Positions 7,548-15,658 of a stretch of 35,841 nt of DNA are shown here, in pieces. The notes beneath the pieces were generated by a model, which worked only from the letters and a program-made list of their open reading frames with translations, ran no database searches and was not told where the DNA came from. Numbering within the stretch: position 1 is the stretch's first letter; each line of letters opens with the position of its first letter. Source of the DNA: an uncultured Candidatus Thioglobus sp. (lineage in GTDB: Bacteria; Pseudomonadota; Gammaproteobacteria; PS1; Pseudothioglobaceae); NCBI GenBank assembly GCA_905620445.1, contig CAJQTP010000046.1, positions 1 to 35,841 on the forward strand, written 5' to 3'. Position numbers and translations under genes: made by a program.

Positions 7548-9878
7548 ATGAAAAAACTACTCCTACTTTTAATTCTTTCCTTCTTCTCAGCTCAAAGTCT
7601 TGCGGGTTCTTGCCCTGATGGTAGTGAGCCAGTAAAGAGTATTTCTGATGACGGCACTTATTTTGTATTCAACTGTGGCGGTGGTAATGAACAATCATCT
7701 TCATCTACTAATACTGGCAGCTGGAATGACTCAGGTCCATTAGACGAGTTGACAATTCCCGATAACTGGCAATTATTTAAATATAAAAAGACCCTAAGTG
7801 AGGCTCGCAAGAATTTTGAGGCTCTTAGTTTTACAGGATTTGGATTTGGCACTCATAGGTACATCAAAGATACTTGTATAGGTGTTCTCAAAGATTGGGG
7901 TCAATCAATGAAAGTCTACAATTCCATTAAAAAAGAGCTTGATGAAGCTACTAAATTTGGAGGTGAAGGAGCGGAGTCTAAGGATTTGCAGGGCTGTATC
8001 GATAGATTTATATACTCAACACAAAGTTCTACTGGAACCCCAGACTACATGAAAGAAATCCTTCTTCATTGGGCAAAGACTAATGCGGTTTTTATTCCTA
8101 GCGGAGTTAACGATGAAAACTGGAGTAATTATGTCTATGAGGCAGTTCAATCTTGGTCTTCTTTTGGCAGTTATTACGCGACTTTCTATGATGAATTTAA
8201 CTACAGCGATTCTGAGAGAAAGATTGTTGATGCGTATATAAAGGATAAACTTCTAAACCTCGATACCCGAAATCTAGTGTCATCCGCTCACGGTTCAGCT
8301 TGTGACCCTGATAATCTTAATAGAACTGTAGAGGGGGGGATTCAAGGAAAAATTGACCATAATAGTTGTGGCAGCTCTGTCTGGAAGACCACACTCGCTC
8401 AGCTTTTAGTTGGCCTGAGGTTAAACAATGAGGCTCTTTTTAAGAAGGGCGTAGAGAATACTAAATACCAGCTCAGCTTTTTTGATGATAGCGGAATCTT
8501 TACAACTTGGGCTCTAAAGGGTGCTAACGCTTATCACTACAGTAGCAGCGTCCCAATTATGCTGGGCGGACTCACTGAAATCTATGCCAGCGTTGGCTAT
8601 GACTTTATGGAGCACAAACTCCGCAATGGTCTGAGCGTCAAAGAGCTAATGGACAGGCAGTATGAAATCTTGCTTGACCCACATATCTTAGATGGCTATG
8701 TTAAAAGGTACCCATTAGCCTACAGGGGAGTGCCAAACTCAGTGTATATTCAGTCCTCAGCAGAGCAAATAAGAAAGGAAATTGGTATGAATTTGTTTGC
8801 TTTTGTCAGGAATCTGCCGAGATACGTTGATACTTACCGAGCTGATATTGGCAACAGTCAAGAGTTTGATAAAAAACTAGCAAGTCAACCTCAAGAAATT
8901 CGGGGAGATGTTCCGTGGATGTCTTTAGGAGCCTTCCAGCCACTTGACCCCTATTTAGTCTACATATCAGACATCAAAGAGCCAGAATCAAAGACTAAAG
9001 TCGCATCAGAGTTATCCATTTTTGAAGTTGAGGGTGATACCTTCAACTTAGCACTAGATAAAGTAGAGTTTGTTGAAACTGGCTCCTTTAAATTAGAACG
9101 TGAAGAAGAAGGGTATCTTAAGCCTTTTCAACTGCATAAAGGCCATATAAATGGTTACTTAAAAACAAAAAGTAACTGGAGCAAAAATATTGAAACCCTA
9201 GTCTATAAGCATGATAGTGTCCAAGAGCAAAAACTTGTAATCCATACAAATAGCCCAACAATAAAACCCTTAACACGGCATAGTGATTCTCTTCAGAAGA
9301 AATGTGGGTCGAAAGTAATGGAATGGGGATGGCTAAGTTTTATCAGCAAGACCAACGACATCAAGAGTGCTAGGAATCAACAATGTATATACGACTACTT
9401 TAAAGAAGCTAATGATAGAGAGGCTTTGGAATTATTCCAAGCAGTCTTAGGGGGTACGGACTCTATATTAGATTACTTGCAAACAAGTCCTGAAGAGCGA
9501 CGAATTAAAGTTGCGACCAAAGAAGAGGAAAAGCGAATTCCAGCAGACTTAGAACTACCCATTTTTGATGACGTTGAACATAAGCTAGAAGGGCAAATTC
9601 TAAAAATCAATATATTCAGCCCTAAAATGAAACCTTTAATGCGGCATTTAGCCTCTCTTCAGAGGAAATGCGGGGGGGCTTTTATAACTGGAAAAAGGTG
9701 GAATTGGCTTAGTTTTGTTAGTAGTGACTCCGATAATATTAGGAATTCTAACAACCAACAATGTCATTATGATTATTACAAATCTTCTAATGATAATGAG
9801 GCTTTTGAGTTATTTAAAGCTGTCCTAAGTGGTACTGATTCAATATTGGATTATCTTAAAGCAGAAGTTATTGAATAA
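7548..9878 (+). CDS. Secreted alginate-lyase-like protein with C-terminal repeat modules
   Basis: A 776-aa protein with a clear Sec signal peptide (MKKLLLLLILSFFSAQSLA, cut after about residue 19). A short Cys-bearing stretch (CPDGSEP ... FNCGGG) and a Ser/Thr/Asn-rich linker follow. Residues of about 90-430 are helical and resemble alginate lyase/heparinase-type alpha/alpha toroids, mainly ATKFGG-DHNSCGSSVW (about 270) and GIFTTWALKGANAYHYSSS (about 315-333), where such lyases carry their substrate-binding Asn/His/Tyr. The usual NNHxYW motif is changed, so activity is uncertain. From about residue 484 comes a region shared with the protein at 14345, including two copies (about 563-646 and 684-772) of a module with motifs RHxxSxQxKCG, NQQCxYDY and GTDSILDYL. 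The final VIE codons lie in recJ-derived DNA. Lyase assignment moderate; module function unknown. Confidence 0.75.
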   Translation: MKKLLLLLILSFFSAQSLAGSCPDGSEPVKSISDDGTYFVFNCGGGNEQSSSSTNTGSWNDSGPLDELTIPDNWQLFKYKKTLSEARKNFEALSFTGFGFGTHRYIKDTCIGVLKDWGQSMKVYNSIKKELDEATKFGGEGAESKDLQGCIDRFIYSTQSSTGTPDYMKEILLHWAKTNAVFIPSGVNDENWSNYVYEAVQSWSSFGSYYATFYDEFNYSDSERKIVDAYIKDKLLNLDTRNLVSSAHGSACDPDNLNRTVEGGIQGKIDHNSCGSSVWKTTLAQLLVGLRLNNEALFKKGVENTKYQLSFFDDSGIFTTWALKGANAYHYSSSVPIMLGGLTEIYASVGYDFMEHKLRNGLSVKELMDRQYEILLDPHILDGYVKRYPLAYRGVPNSVYIQSSAEQIRKEIGMNLFAFVRNLPRYVDTYRADIGNSQEFDKKLASQPQEIRGDVPWMSLGAFQPLDPYLVYISDIKEPESKTKVASELSIFEVEGDTFNLALDKVEFVETGSFKLEREEEGYLKPFQLHKGHINGYLKTKSNWSKNIETLVYKHDSVQEQKLVIHTNSPTIKPLTRHSDSLQKKCGSKVMEWGWLSFISKTNDIKSARNQQCIYDYFKEANDREALELFQAVLGGTDSILDYLQTSPEERRIKVATKEEEKRIPADLELPIFDDVEHKLEGQILKINIFSPKMKPLMRHLASLQRKCGGAFITGKRWNWLSFVSSDSDNIRNSNNQQCHYDYYKSSNDNEAFELFKAVLSGTDSILDYLKAEVIE
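9235..9486 (+). repeat. Copy 1 of a novel ~85-residue coding module
   Basis: Encodes residues of about 563-646 of the secreted lyase-like protein. It is closer to the module at 15391-15651 than to copy 2 just downstream; long runs such as TTATTCCAAGCAGTCTT are identical in DNA. The conserved frame is RHSDSLQKKCG, WGWLSF, NQQC, YDYFKEA, ELFQAVLGGTDSILDYLQT. Confidence 0.85.
9600..9863 (+). repeat. Copy 2 of the novel module
   Basis: Encodes residues of about 684-772 of the lyase-like protein with the same landmarks (RHLASLQRKCG, WNWLSF, NQQCHYDY, LFKAVLSGTDSILDYLKAE). It is more diverged than copy 1 and is directly followed by the recJ remnant. Confidence 0.85.
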
Positions 9879-10019: not shown

Positions 10020-11579
10020 ATGAACAAGGCGCCACTTACTGGACGCGAAGGCCAAAAGATAAACCTCGGTCTGCTCCTTCAAAACTCTGCCAAGCAATAC
10101 GGCTCCAAAACTTTTGTGACCCAAGCTGAAACAGGCGAGCGCTTAACCTATGCTGAATTTAATAAACTAACAAATCATATTGCCCATGGCCTCATTGACC
10201 TCGGCTTTGGTGATGAAGAGTACATCGCCATAATGCTTCCAAGCTGTATTCAGTTTTTAGCTTGCTCCTACGCACTTAAAAAAATCGGCGTGATCGAAGT
10301 GGCTATTAATAGTAATGCGCGCGGCCCCTCCCTTGCGCGCATGATTGACATGACAAAGTGCAAAATACTGATTACTTCTGGGAAGCATTTGCAGCAGTTA
10401 TCTGAGGTTTCTGAAAGCCTAAAGCACTTACAGCAAGTTATCATGATCGATAAGCAACAGAGGGCTAAAGAGCTACTTCAAAGTTTTAATATATTGCCGT
10501 GGCAGTCACTTCTTGCTCAGTCCAGCTCAAATTTTTCTTGTGACTTTAGTGACGAAGAAACAGCTGTAATTCTTTTTACTTCAGGAACTACGGGCGTATC
10601 AAAAGGTTGTGATATTCCTCACAGATCCTCAGTTCGAGCTGCAGAGTCGATCATAGAGGCATTCAGTATTACTGAGCAAGATTGTGTCTACAGCCCATAC
10701 CCTTTGTATCATGTAGGGGCAACACAGTACGACATATTGCCAGCTATGATGGTTGGCGGCCGAGTGGTTATTCGTCAGGGCTTTAGCCTATCTAATTTTT
10801 GGAGTGATGTTTGCCGCTATAAGGCAACATGGTTTATGTCGATGGGCTCTGTTCAGCAGTTGCTTTGGTCAGCAGAGCCGTGCATTGAAGAAACGCAGCA
10901 TAGTTTGCGCTTTATATGGGGAACCCCTTTGCCTGTTGACCATGACGATTTTGAATCTCGCTTTCAGCTTAAACTAGCCCGAGGCACTGGATATGGCTCT
11001 ACCGAAGCTGGCGGCGTAGCGCTTCCGCTTTTTGATAAGAGCGGGGCTGGCAAGGTTCTGGATCGTTATAAAGTAGCTATTGTAGGTGCAAACGACAATG
11101 AACTCCCTATAGGAGAATCTGGCGAGCTTGTGATTCGCCCACTTGAGCCCGCTATTATGGCATCCAAATATATTGGCATGCCTGAGGAGACAGCCAAGGC
11201 TTGGCGAAACTCATGGTTCCACTCAGGAGATTTTGCTAAATTGGATGACGAAGGCAACCTTTATTGGCTAGCACGCATGTCAGAAAGGATCCGAGTGAAA
11301 GGAGAAATGGTTTCAGCTTACGAAATTGAAGAGAGCATATTTACTCACCCTTCTGTGACTGATTGCGCAGTAATTGGTATCCCAGATGGAGCTGGAGAAG
11401 AGCAAGTTAAGGCGTTTATAACGCTTAAAGAAAATAAGACACTGACCCTGGAAGAATTACGTTTATTCTGCGCTCCTATTATTAGTCGTTTTATGAACCC
11501 TACATCACTTGAAGTACTTCAAGAAATGCCGCGAACCCAAACAGGTAAGCCCGCCAAAGCAGAACTCCAAAAAAAGTAG
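10020..11579 (+). CDS. AMP-dependent acyl-CoA synthetase/ligase
   Basis: A 519-aa member of the ANL adenylating superfamily, which activates a carboxylate with ATP and usually passes it to CoA. Visible motifs: the P-loop FTSGTTGVSKGCDIPH (about residue 186), YGSTEAGG (about 324), the hinge and ribose-binding WFHSGDFAKLDDEGNLYW, ARMSERIRVKGEMVSAYEIE, and the C-terminal lysine motif TQTGKPAKAEL (about 508). Overall it most resembles CaiC-type (crotonobetaine/carnitine-CoA ligase) and medium/long-chain acyl-CoA ligases, but the substrate cannot be read from sequence. No acyl-CoA dehydrogenase or CoA transferase is adjacent. No Shine-Dalgarno is clear at the ATG. Confidence 0.88.
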   Translation: MNKAPLTGREGQKINLGLLLQNSAKQYGSKTFVTQAETGERLTYAEFNKLTNHIAHGLIDLGFGDEEYIAIMLPSCIQFLACSYALKKIGVIEVAINSNARGPSLARMIDMTKCKILITSGKHLQQLSEVSESLKHLQQVIMIDKQQRAKELLQSFNILPWQSLLAQSSSNFSCDFSDEETAVILFTSGTTGVSKGCDIPHRSSVRAAESIIEAFSITEQDCVYSPYPLYHVGATQYDILPAMMVGGRVVIRQGFSLSNFWSDVCRYKATWFMSMGSVQQLLWSAEPCIEETQHSLRFIWGTPLPVDHDDFESRFQLKLARGTGYGSTEAGGVALPLFDKSGAGKVLDRYKVAIVGANDNELPIGESGELVIRPLEPAIMASKYIGMPEETAKAWRNSWFHSGDFAKLDDEGNLYWLARMSERIRVKGEMVSAYEIEESIFTHPSVTDCAVIGIPDGAGEEQVKAFITLKENKTLTLEELRLFCAPIISRFMNPTSLEVLQEMPRTQTGKPAKAELQKK

Positions 11580-11647: not shown

Positions 11648-11692
11648 ATGTATACTTTATTTAAAAGTATGGTTAATTTTAAATAACACTAC

Positions 11693-13159
11693 ATGAACGA
11701 AAACTTTCGAATTGCCCAAAAACTTGGACTCATGTTTCGACCAGAAGAAACATTGCCCCAAGACATTAAAGGATGGGCAATTAAGCAGCTCCACGCACCC
11801 TCCCCTTCCCTTGGTATTGGTAATGTTGGATCTGACGTTAAGCCCTGGCCAAAAATATTCCAACCAAGCCTAGATCAGAAGGCAGTAAAACTAAGAATCC
11901 ACTGGGAAACAATCAAAAGAGAGAGAAAGAAAAAAGGCGGCTACACTGAGAGCGCACAGCGTGCAAATGATAGGGACAACTTAATGTATGAAAAAGACAT
12001 TCTTAGATTCTCACATCGCAATGTCTATGGCTCTGACCAGCTTCGCCTTCGTCTTATGTCGTTCTGGGCAAACCACTTTACAATAGGTAGTTTTGATTCT
12101 AGGGAGGTAATTGGGCATGCAATGGAGGAGGCAATATTAGCAAATTTTAATGACTCGTTTTCAACCATGCTATACAAGGTCACCACGCATCCAGGAATGT
12201 TGAGCTACCTGGATAACCATATTAGTGCCGGACCCAATTCAAATCAAGTTAGGTGGGCCAAAGCAAACGGAGAGCAGGCTGGTCTGAATGACAACCTTGG
12301 AAGAGAGCTACTAGAACTTCATACCGTTTCACCAAGCGCAAACTATACTGAGACCGACATTAGAAATGCAGCAAAGGTTCTAGCTGGTTGGGGCATTGAC
12401 ATTAAAGGTAACCCTTTGAGTTCTTTAATGGATCAAGGTGGGACCACTAACCTTTGGGACATGTATAAAAGGAATTGGGCCGAGCCAGGCAATAAGATGG
12501 TCCTTGGAAAAACGATAGGTACAGGAAAAGGCGGCCTCAAACAGTTGACAGATTTTCTGGCCGCTCATGAGCATACGGTAATGCACCTCTCAACAAAGTT
12601 AGCCGAGCATTTTGTTAGCGATGTTCCCAATAAAACGGATGTCAATTACATTGCAAGTGCCTGGAGACAGAGCAATGGCAACCTAGACCAAATCCATACA
12701 GCAGTTATAGAAAGAGCTATTGCATCGAAGGAGCCAAAATTTCAGTTGCCGATGACTTGGCTTTTTCAAGTTTTAAGGCTGAGCAATGCCACATACTTTA
12801 TGGGCTGGAATGAGATTAATACTTCAAATAATAGCTTGAAGTTTAATATGCAGCCTATGCAAATATTTGATGAGCTAGGACAAAATTTATGGGCAGAAAG
12901 ACAACCCAATGGTTACTCAAGTAAAAAAGAGGAGTGGATGTCTGGCGAAATGTTTGAGCGGCGAATTAGGTTTGCTGACTCTATTTGGACTTCGGATAGC
13001 CAAATACAATCAACAAGTGTCATTATGGATCGAATTGGAGCAAGTAAAGAGACACGGAAGCTAGTTGAGAGTCTTCATGGAATGTCTTCAAGGTCTAAAA
13101 AGAATCAATTTATTGCACTAATGTGTAGCCCTGAACTCATGGGACTTGAAAATGCCTAA
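11693..13159 (+). CDS. DUF1800 family protein
   Basis: A 488-aa protein with the family's landmarks: LRLMSFWANHF (where wild types usually read W-x-NHF), NLGRELLELHTVSPSANYTETD (about residue 201) and VLAGWGI. Family function is unknown; members are typically encoded beside DUF1501 proteins and are usually exported. Here the N-terminus (MNENFRIAQKLGLMFRPEE) has no hydrophobic signal, and an in-frame stop lies four codons upstream of the ATG, so no longer form exists. It overlaps the Tat-signal DUF1501 gene by 8 bases, so the two are translated together and may leave the cell as a complex. No Shine-Dalgarno. Confidence 0.88.
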   Translation: MNENFRIAQKLGLMFRPEETLPQDIKGWAIKQLHAPSPSLGIGNVGSDVKPWPKIFQPSLDQKAVKLRIHWETIKRERKKKGGYTESAQRANDRDNLMYEKDILRFSHRNVYGSDQLRLRLMSFWANHFTIGSFDSREVIGHAMEEAILANFNDSFSTMLYKVTTHPGMLSYLDNHISAGPNSNQVRWAKANGEQAGLNDNLGRELLELHTVSPSANYTETDIRNAAKVLAGWGIDIKGNPLSSLMDQGGTTNLWDMYKRNWAEPGNKMVLGKTIGTGKGGLKQLTDFLAAHEHTVMHLSTKLAEHFVSDVPNKTDVNYIASAWRQSNGNLDQIHTAVIERAIASKEPKFQLPMTWLFQVLRLSNATYFMGWNEINTSNNSLKFNMQPMQIFDELGQNLWAERQPNGYSSKKEEWMSGEMFERRIRFADSIWTSDSQIQSTSVIMDRIGASKETRKLVESLHGMSSRSKKNQFIALMCSPELMGLENA

Positions 13160-14303
13160 CTATAAATTAACAAGAAGAGATTTTTTAAAGGCCTCTGGAG
13201 CATCTCTGTTCTTAGCAGGTATTCCACTTCAAGGATTTACTCAAGACAAGCCGCCCGGGAAAATCTCGGTCATTATTCTTGAAGGCGGCATGGATGGGTT
13301 AAGTGCTGTTCCAGCCTTTGGTGACCCAAATTTTGAAAAGATGAGAGGCATACTTGTCCCTGAAAATTATTTAAAACTGAATTCATTTTTTGGCCTTCAC
13401 CCCTCTCTCAAAAATCTTTCCTCCTTAATGGCATCCAATAACGCCTCAATTGTTCATGCAACCTCATTTCCGTATAAAAAAAGATCACACTTTGAAGGTC
13501 AGAATTTAATTCAAGGAGGCGGCTTGACTCCGTTTTCTGAAAAGACAGGCTGGCTTGGACGCTCTTTGGAGCTTGCAAAGATTCCAGGTAGAGCCCTTTC
13601 ACTAGAAATGCCGCTGATACTTAGAGGGTATGGTGAAAACGATAATTTTTTTCCAGCAAAAATTAACAATTCTAGCAAAATAAATATTAATTTAGTTGAA
13701 AAACTGACTGCGGCGCATGGAAAGGTGGGAAGTGATGTATTTGAAAAAGTTAAGCAAAAAAGTTTACTAACTTTAGAAAATATGCCAAGAGATTCTCAAA
13801 GTTTAGCGGAGTATGCGGGCAAGGCTATGGCAAAAAAAGATGGGCCTACAGCCTCAGTTATAAGGTTGAGTGGATTTGACTCGCACGCTTCTCAAGATGA
13901 CGGGAACGGTAATGACCATGGGATTGATTTAGCAAAAATTGACGGGGTTATTGCCGCTTACAAAAGAGGACTCGGAGGCGCATGGGATAATAGCATTATT
14001 CTTACTATCACTGAGTTTGGAAGGACGGTTGCTGTCAACGGTACAAGGGGAACAGATCATGGGTACGGCTCTGCTGGAATAATTGCAGGTGGCGCAATCT
14101 CTAAATCAAGAGTTATATCTGACTGGCCGGGTCTTGCAAAAAATGAGCAGTATGAGCAGAGGGATTTAATGTCGACAATTGATTACCGATCGGTGTGTGC
14201 TGCCTGCATTGAAAAATCTTTAGGGCTGGATCACGACCTCATTGCAAACAAGGTATTCTTTGAACCAAAACTACCAAGAGTTTTTGACTACCTCTTTTCG
14301 TGA
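13152..14303 (+). CDS. DUF1501 family protein with Tat signal
   Basis: 383 aa from the ATG at 13152 (a TTG at 13146 would add two residues). The N-terminus has a twin-arginine motif, TRRDFLKAS, then a hydrophobic stretch (GASLFLAGIPLQGF). The body shows the sulfatase/alkaline-phosphatase-like pattern of DUF1501: GGMDGLSAVPAFGD near the start, SGFDSHASQDDGNGNDHG, LTITEFGRTVAVNGTRGTDHG (about 284-304) and AGIIAGG. Such proteins are thought to be periplasmic, possibly metal-binding; no enzyme activity is established. It follows the DUF1800 gene with an 8-base overlap. Confidence 0.9.
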   Translation: MPNYKLTRRDFLKASGASLFLAGIPLQGFTQDKPPGKISVIILEGGMDGLSAVPAFGDPNFEKMRGILVPENYLKLNSFFGLHPSLKNLSSLMASNNASIVHATSFPYKKRSHFEGQNLIQGGGLTPFSEKTGWLGRSLELAKIPGRALSLEMPLILRGYGENDNFFPAKINNSSKININLVEKLTAAHGKVGSDVFEKVKQKSLLTLENMPRDSQSLAEYAGKAMAKKDGPTASVIRLSGFDSHASQDDGNGNDHGIDLAKIDGVIAAYKRGLGGAWDNSIILTITEFGRTVAVNGTRGTDHGYGSAGIIAGGAISKSRVISDWPGLAKNEQYEQRDLMSTIDYRSVCAACIEKSLGLDHDLIANKVFFEPKLPRVFDYLFS

Positions 14304-14344
14304 CTCCCAAAGACATTTAAAGAATCTTATATTCATTTAACTAA

Positions 14345-15658
14345 ATGACAACAATCAAAATCCTTACTAGTTTTCTAATACTCAGCTGCATTATTGGTAA
14401 TGTCAATGCTGGGTATCTTGATGACTGGCCAGATGAGGCATTGTGTGGATGGCTTGATGGCGCTTCTCCACCTGAATATATTATTGAGGAAGCCAATAAA
14501 AGAGGTATCAGCTGTCCAGGAGAAGTTGCATCAAAACATTTAATTGAAAATGTGCAGTCGAGTTCTACACCTAACATTGAAATTTATGACATTATATTTA
14601 GTGATGAGATTTTGCAAGAGCTTCTGGAAATATCTCCAGAAGAGAAGGCTTCAGACTTTACTAGAAACTTTAAAAATTATCGCTTAGCCTTCATTCAAGA
14701 TGAAATAATTTGTGGCTTTAACCTCAAACGCGTTGTTTATGAGAACAAAGCCGAAGGGGAGATTGAGGGCTGGGATATGGCCTATGGCTCAATAACTTTT
14801 AAGGGGCTAAATGCTGACTTCAAAGGCGCCTGGTCAAAGAATATGGGAGGACTCTCAAGTGATTCCAGATATTTTAATGATGAAATCAATATAAAGCTTA
14901 CAAAAGATGGGCACCTTGTTGGGAAAATGGCTTATTTCACCCACACTGTAGGTAGCGATGAAGCCCCTAGGAGGCCTTTATTTATTGAACTTGAAAAACA
15001 CTCAAAATCCAAACCATTGAATTATAAAAATATTAATCTTGATAATTCTGCTGAATTCTGGATTGATGTTGAAGATTGGGCAGGCGGCGTATTGAATCTT
15101 TTCCAATGCAAAGATAGAAAAATAGAAAAACAAAAAGAAGAAGCCAAGATAGCAGCTTCTATATTACATATTTTTAAAATTGATAATGAAACGTACAAAT
15201 TAACCTTAAATAAAGCTGAATTCATGGAAACTAAGCCATTTAAATTGGAGCGTTCAGAGGAATATCTAAAGCCCTATCAACTCTTCAAAACAGTTATATT
15301 CGGCAAACTTAAGTCAAAAATTGATGGCAATAAAATGATTGATTTCACTACCTTAGTTTTTAAGCAAGATGATGGCCAGGAGCAAAAACTAGTAATCAAT
15401 TTAGATGACCGGACACTAGAATCTCTTTGGCGTCATAGTGATTCTATTCAACAAAAATGCGGAATGGGTTTAATTGATCAGTGGGGCTGGATGGGTTTTA
15501 TAACTGAAACCAGTGATCTTATGAATGCTAAGAATCAGCAATGTCATTATGATTATTTTAAAGAAGCAAGTGACACGATGGCTTGGGAGTTATTCCAAGC
15601 AGTCTTGGGCGGTACGGATTCTATATTAGATTATCTTCAAACAAATGTGAAGAGATGA
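14345..15658 (+). CDS. Secreted protein with the shared C-terminal module
   Basis: A 437-aa protein with a Sec signal peptide (MTTIKILTSFLILSC ... VNA, about 22 residues). A short segment with two cysteines follows (LCGWLDGASPPEY ... RGISC). The middle (about 75-255) is a unique domain I do not recognise, with one Cys in IICGFN and one in LFQCKD. After a charged linker (KQKEEAK), residues of about 274-437 match the C-terminal part of the lyase-like protein at 7548: FKLERSEEYLKPYQL, then RHSDSIQQKCG, NQQCHYDYFKEA and GTDSILDYLQT. DNA as well as protein similarity is plain, so the two share a recent duplication. It converges on recJ, with 19 bases between stops. Function unknown. Confidence 0.85.
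   Translation: MTTIKILTSFLILSCIIGNVNAGYLDDWPDEALCGWLDGASPPEYIIEEANKRGISCPGEVASKHLIENVQSSSTPNIEIYDIIFSDEILQELLEISPEEKASDFTRNFKNYRLAFIQDEIICGFNLKRVVYENKAEGEIEGWDMAYGSITFKGLNADFKGAWSKNMGGLSSDSRYFNDEINIKLTKDGHLVGKMAYFTHTVGSDEAPRRPLFIELEKHSKSKPLNYKNINLDNSAEFWIDVEDWAGGVLNLFQCKDRKIEKQKEEAKIAASILHIFKIDNETYKLTLNKAEFMETKPFKLERSEEYLKPYQLFKTVIFGKLKSKIDGNKMIDFTTLVFKQDDGQEQKLVINLDDRTLESLWRHSDSIQQKCGMGLIDQWGWMGFITETSDLMNAKNQQCHYDYFKEASDTMAWELFQAVLGGTDSILDYLQTNVKR
15391..15651 (+). repeat. Third copy of the novel module
   Basis: Encodes residues of about 349-435 of the protein at 14345. Closest to the copy at 9235-9486, and like copy 2 it is directly followed by a recJ 3' end (here the real gene). Confidence 0.85.

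Follow-up and report, generated by a model that had tools for sequence, protein, structure and literature searches.

Two nearby genes on a 35,841-nucleotide contig of an uncultured Candidatus Thioglobus sp. (the window, analysed at its full length) encode proteins A and B, which have similar C-terminal sequences. A sequence-only reading of the window had called their N-terminal halves unrelated, and the two bodies indeed give no match to each other. The question raised by this locus is what the common C-terminal sequence is, and how it came to be joined to two different proteins.

The repeating unit and its predicted fold

The sequence-only reading described three copies of a motif, two in A and one in B, with a shared region containing FKLERxEE and YLKPxQL ahead of the first copy in each protein. 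All three were confirmed, at residues 563-645 and 685-772 of A and residues 349-435 of B. A profile built from the three copies recovered each of them with an i-E of about 1e-49 or better, reaching 1e-52, among 2,409 ORFs of the loci examined. Identity to copy 1 is 64% for copy 2 and 60% for copy 3, far above chance. The shared region was found ahead of A copy 1 and of the B copy, and over the joint stretch of shared region and motif A and B are 59% identical. The boundaries proposed for the module were, however, too short. Proteins from SAR11 contain two complete copies of about 160 amino acids back to back, and the alignments therefore indicate that the repeating unit comprises both parts, the FKLER/YLKP region forming its N-terminal half and the 85-aa motif its C-terminal half. 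The second copy in A has an internal deletion: the stretch between the first 'xxIF' strand and the complete C-terminal half is missing. Wherever the end of a protein is visible, units lie at its C-terminus; they are arranged in tandem in A, L015 and each of the 18 SAR11 loci (L017-L034). Complete host proteins begin with a signal-peptide-like sequence, as judged by eye, in agreement with the earlier suggestion that they are secreted. The features of the window are collected in Table 1.

Table 1. Features of proteins A and B and their surroundings, in window coordinates.
Feature	Position	Strand	Remarks
Protein A, 776 aa: putative signal peptide, short N-terminal Cys module, alginate-lyase-like body, C-terminal units	7548..9878	+	
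Short N-terminal module of A (SCPDGSEPVKSISDDGTYFVFNCGGG)	7602..7697	+	Also in proteins of quite different bodies
PL5/PF05426-like body of A	7740..8987	+	Alginate lyase profile matches; similarity to L101 lyase
Full unit 1 in A, ~160 aa	8997..9497	+	Profile E 5e-70
Second unit in A, internally shortened: strand 1 and complete C-terminal half	9540..9875	+	E 1.6e-40
DUF1800 and DUF1501 genes directly upstream of B	11693..14303	+	Three-gene block with B core conserved
Protein B, 437 aa: putative signal peptide, short N-terminal Cys module, core, C-terminal unit	14345..15658	+	
Short N-terminal module of B (YLDDWPDEALCGWLDG...KRGISC)	14402..14524	+	Recurs in small ORFs of the genus
Core of B, residues 67-257	14543..15115	+	Conserved across the genus, with differing tails
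Full unit in B	15137..15655	+	25%-identical version in G009, SNase/Sel1 tail in G006

The two cysteines described as invariant are kept in all copies, and exactly two are present in 24/24 units examined. The disulfide previously suggested as possible is on this basis likely. In an alignment of 21 units the invariant residues are C108, Q134, C136, L157, I163 and L167 (numbering of the B unit). In the most divergent copies invariance is limited to the two cysteines, one glutamine and hydrophobic positions, and no set of residues resembling a catalytic site is conserved; L009 and L010 have lost the 'RH' motif and other polar positions.

The structure prediction and fold comparison proposed with the sequence-only reading were carried out on the unit. 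Using the 21-member alignment, AlphaFold2 produced a model with pLDDT 85.6 and pTM 0.85; it was the one of five models to reach pLDDT 85, the others giving 81, 80, 69 and 46. The predicted fold is alpha+beta, with a beta-meander, two short helices, one strand and two long helices, and the confidence of the model fits an independently folding domain. When a match was defined as a Foldseek E below 0.001 or a substantial TM-score, none was found in the PDB (best E 0.83, TM no higher than 0.26 among the 50 matches listed) or in the viral structure library BFVD (best E 0.77). The unit regions of A and B likewise gave no significant match in Pfam, NCBIfam, PHROGs or PDB sequences, taking as the criterion a score above the curated cut-off or a clear E-value. 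Searching Pfam with the 21 unit members gave nothing above cut-off, the best E being 0.0079 and for single members only. A CUB-domain match in A residues 721-755 (E 0.04, far under cut-off) was dismissed as chance. Literature searches found nothing on the tail module. In these libraries, then, no described domain family clearly matches the unit, which was rightly called unrecognised and is best described as a new accessory-domain family.

Exchange of tails between proteins

That the unit is portable, as had been supposed, is shown by comparison of B with orthologues in its genus. The orthologue in the same place in G009 is 97% identical over residues 1-66 and 91% over the core, but only 25% over the tail. 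At the DNA level, window positions 11690-15114 are 96.4% identical to G009, nothing can be aligned over the unit, and the flanks are 85-88% identical. The difference between block and flanks suggests recent recombination between species. G009 and G025 are 54% identical in the core and 63% in the tail; as these two agree in both parts, the tail of B in the window is probably the one that was changed. In the single-contig genome G006 the gene at this position, flanked by DUF1501 and recJ, encodes a protein with a B core (47% identical), an SNase/Sel1 tail and an N-terminal module resembling that of A. An SNase-like and Sel1 C-terminal tail is also common to two exported proteins with unrelated bodies, L103:6082-7659 and L105:5991-8207, and is thus a second swappable tail.

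The three-gene block of DUF1800, DUF1501 and B is conserved in G006, G009 and G025. Pairs of DUF1501 and DUF1800 genes have been reported next to bacterial chitin synthase genes, where their role is unknown (PMC5122149). The core of B (residues 67-257) has no match to anything known. An AMP-binding ligase gene (10020-11579) lies between A and the DUF1800 gene, and has no counterpart in the related loci compared.

Mismatches of body and tail were also found across lineages. The L014 lyase is 62-64% identical to SAR11-type lyases and 21% to A, whereas its unit is 60-67% identical to full A/B-type units and 37-47% to SAR11 units. In a tree this unit grouped with the A/B-type units with moderate support (82/91). 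L014 is a 3.8-kb MAG contig, and its mixture of body and tail may be due to chimeric assembly; against this, a related mixture was observed in L016, a 422-kb single-cell contig, in which the lyase is 57-64% identical to the SAR11 type and the unit 47-54% identical to full A/B-type units and 35-45% to SAR11 units.

The other end of these proteins also varies in its partners. The N-terminal segment of A (SCPDGSEPVKSIS..NCGGG) is found at the start of at least eight proteins in the genus whose bodies are unrelated, among them FG-GAP repeat proteins, lyases, serine-hydrolase-like proteins and the B core, indicating that N-termini are exchanged too. The corresponding segment of B (YLDDW..CGWL..KRGISC) recurs in small frames of about 65-130 amino acids in the genus, among them frames on G000 contigs C13 and C34.

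Lyase-like bodies and the distribution of the unit

A profile of the bodies of A and its SAR11 relatives matched alginate lyases 4f10 and 1hv6 in the PDB (E 4e-4 to 5e-4). PF05426 was matched by 4/9 members, all SAR11 relatives (E up to 10, best 2.6e-5); A itself gave no PF05426 match, and the gathering score was not reached. A is similar to the L101 lyase (E 8e-28). By these comparisons the body of A is a remote homologue of the PL5 alginate lyases (A1-III type), as are those of its SAR11 relatives. The catalytic residues of PL5 are Asn-His, Arg239 and Tyr246. In an alignment made by eye, Tyr246 corresponds to Tyr331 of A and is kept, and Arg239 corresponds to Lys324, this position being Lys or Arg across the lyase bodies. 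They differ from PL5 enzymes in their low identity, in carrying N-[NS]-C-G (NSCG in A) in place of NNHS, and in the addition of an N-terminal module and C-terminal units. The catalytic His position appears as Cys in this alignment, which is ambiguous here. Prediction of the whole of A was poor (pLDDT 47, pTM 0.38) and was left out of the fold comparison. Lyase-like proteins of the genus also occur with other tails (L099:1656-3785 and L101:6566-8389); the former, a separate protein of the same genome as A, passes PF05426 (51.2 vs 22.2 bits).

Twenty-one further unit loci were found in public genomes, 20 in pelagic Alphaproteobacteria (mostly Pelagibacteraceae single cells) and one in a gammaproteobacterial MAG (G010) belonging to the genus of the window. 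The unit is present in 5/83 genomes of the family, all within this genus (5/29), and in 7/297 genomes of the SAR11 order. Each of the seven also encodes a close lyase, and lyase and unit co-occur in 7/7 genomes with such a lyase. No other unit was found outside A and B in the rest of the window's genome (0.9 Mb, 54% complete), nor in 399 genomes across the phylum except the window's own, nor in 385 genomes of the SAR11 class except the query genome. A 19-residue match in G822 (E 8.8e-4) was judged to be chance. Two scans of viral contigs found no relative, and a viral origin was rejected.

In the SAR11 and other pelagic alphaproteobacterial relatives, the units are the tail of alginate-lyase-like proteins that are predicted to be exported. 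L017, L019, L023 and L029 each have a PF14099 polysaccharide-lyase gene immediately upstream; L023 has a second PF14099 gene, and L034 has two downstream. In one SAR11 genome (L063:8975-12539) a PF14099 gene lies about 115 bases upstream of the alginate-lyase-like gene on the same strand. Upstream of L028 is a serine-hydrolase-like gene 35% identical to the gene beside B in G025, a label given by eye, Pfam having returned nothing for the G025 protein.

Possible roles of the unit

Carbohydrate-binding modules (CBMs) fold independently, are often arranged in tandem on exported polysaccharide-active enzymes, and are exchanged between bodies. The unit resembles them in its non-catalytic appearance, its predicted independent folding, its frequent tandem arrangement and its exchange between bodies, and in A and the SAR11 relatives it is attached to a PL5-like body. 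It differs in that B, which also bears a unit, is not a recognisable enzyme, and in that the unit is predicted to be alpha+beta whereas CBMs are usually all-beta sandwiches. Its placement, its tandem copies, its association with lyases and the fact that divergent copies have lost polar motif residues favour a role as a non-catalytic binding or anchoring module, to which we give an even chance. The unit would then be a compact alpha+beta accessory domain, stapled by one disulfide and present as a single copy or a tandem at the C-terminal end of proteins with a signal peptide. Once exported and oxidised, it would tether its host to a glycan or envelope polymer, the host being the B core in B and an alginate-lyase-like enzyme in A and its SAR11 relatives; tandem copies would give higher avidity. 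Since such a C-terminal domain would fold independently of the body, recombination where body and tail meet could swap it, altering where or on what the same body acts.

Several observations count against this role. No sequence or fold similarity of the unit to any known or solved CBM was found, and the catalytic His position of the lyase bodies appears to be Cys. As the B core is of no known function, carbohydrate binding is not implied for B. The type II secretion component GspC was absent from the six host or related genomes tested; some or all unit proteins may therefore remain periplasmic, and anchoring to an external glycan would then be less obvious.

If GspC is missing, leaving the cell would require another export route, as might be expected were the unit a signal for sorting, recognised at the C-terminus by an export or outer-membrane machine and then cleaved or retained at the surface by a logic like that of T9SS or rhombosortase domains. 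T9SS CTD-type sorting domains are C-terminal domains common to exported proteins with unrelated bodies, and the unit likewise stands always at the very C-terminus, joined to unrelated bodies. Unlike them, it occurs in tandem, which a sorting signal would not need, and can be replaced by unrelated tails, and no matching export system was identified. Such a signal is also hard to reconcile with the swap of a 25%-identical tail in a near-identical protein, with the SNase/Sel1 tail on the same B core in a related species, and with the restriction of the unit to 5/29 genus genomes, although these encode several exported proteins of similar style. We regard it as unlikely.

Replacement of the tail inside an otherwise 96% identical block could also reflect a diversifying surface epitope, exchanged mainly to evade phages or grazers, its biochemical role being secondary. 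The sporadic presence of the unit and the variable neighbourhoods of the SAR11 loci, including a GmrSD-type restriction gene adjoining L017, are in keeping with this. It is nevertheless improbable, as the fold core and the two cysteines show strong conservation, the SAR11 proteins retain the same lyase partner, surface exposure is predicted at most, and the viral contigs scanned contained no unit. Similarly doubtful is a module for oligomerisation or for folding and stability, with no external ligand: the long C-terminal helices of the model, the tandem repetition and the conserved hydrophobic residues would suit it, but it is hard to see why an SNase/Sel1 tail should then take its place on the same core. 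The His, Trp, Gln and Asp positions conserved in most copies would be in favour of the unit being itself an enzyme, such as an esterase or lyase working with the body. This is very improbable, since the RH pair and other polar positions are not kept in L009 and L010, and only two Cys, one Gln and hydrophobic residues are strictly invariant.

Returning to binding or anchoring, a more specific proposal, which we make tentatively, is that the unit is a new fold family shared horizontally by streamlined open-ocean bacteria of two classes, SAR11-type Alphaproteobacteria and a gammaproteobacterium that is probably SUP05/Pseudothioglobus-like, in which it gives exported polysaccharide lyases and related proteins a specificity cartridge. 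If this were true, a minority of SAR11 would possess small loci for attacking polysaccharides, equipped with targeting tails that can be swapped.

The locus provides an example, between species, of a predicted exported protein whose tail has been replaced exactly at a domain boundary, and a domain family that is absent from the libraries searched, has no detected fold relative, and is carried by abundant marine bacteria. SAR11 bacteria are usually regarded as living on small molecules. A minority of their genomes contain these lyase-plus-tail genes, some beside further polysaccharide-lyase genes and, if the lyases are active, this would bear on which organisms use acidic polysaccharides as food in the open ocean.
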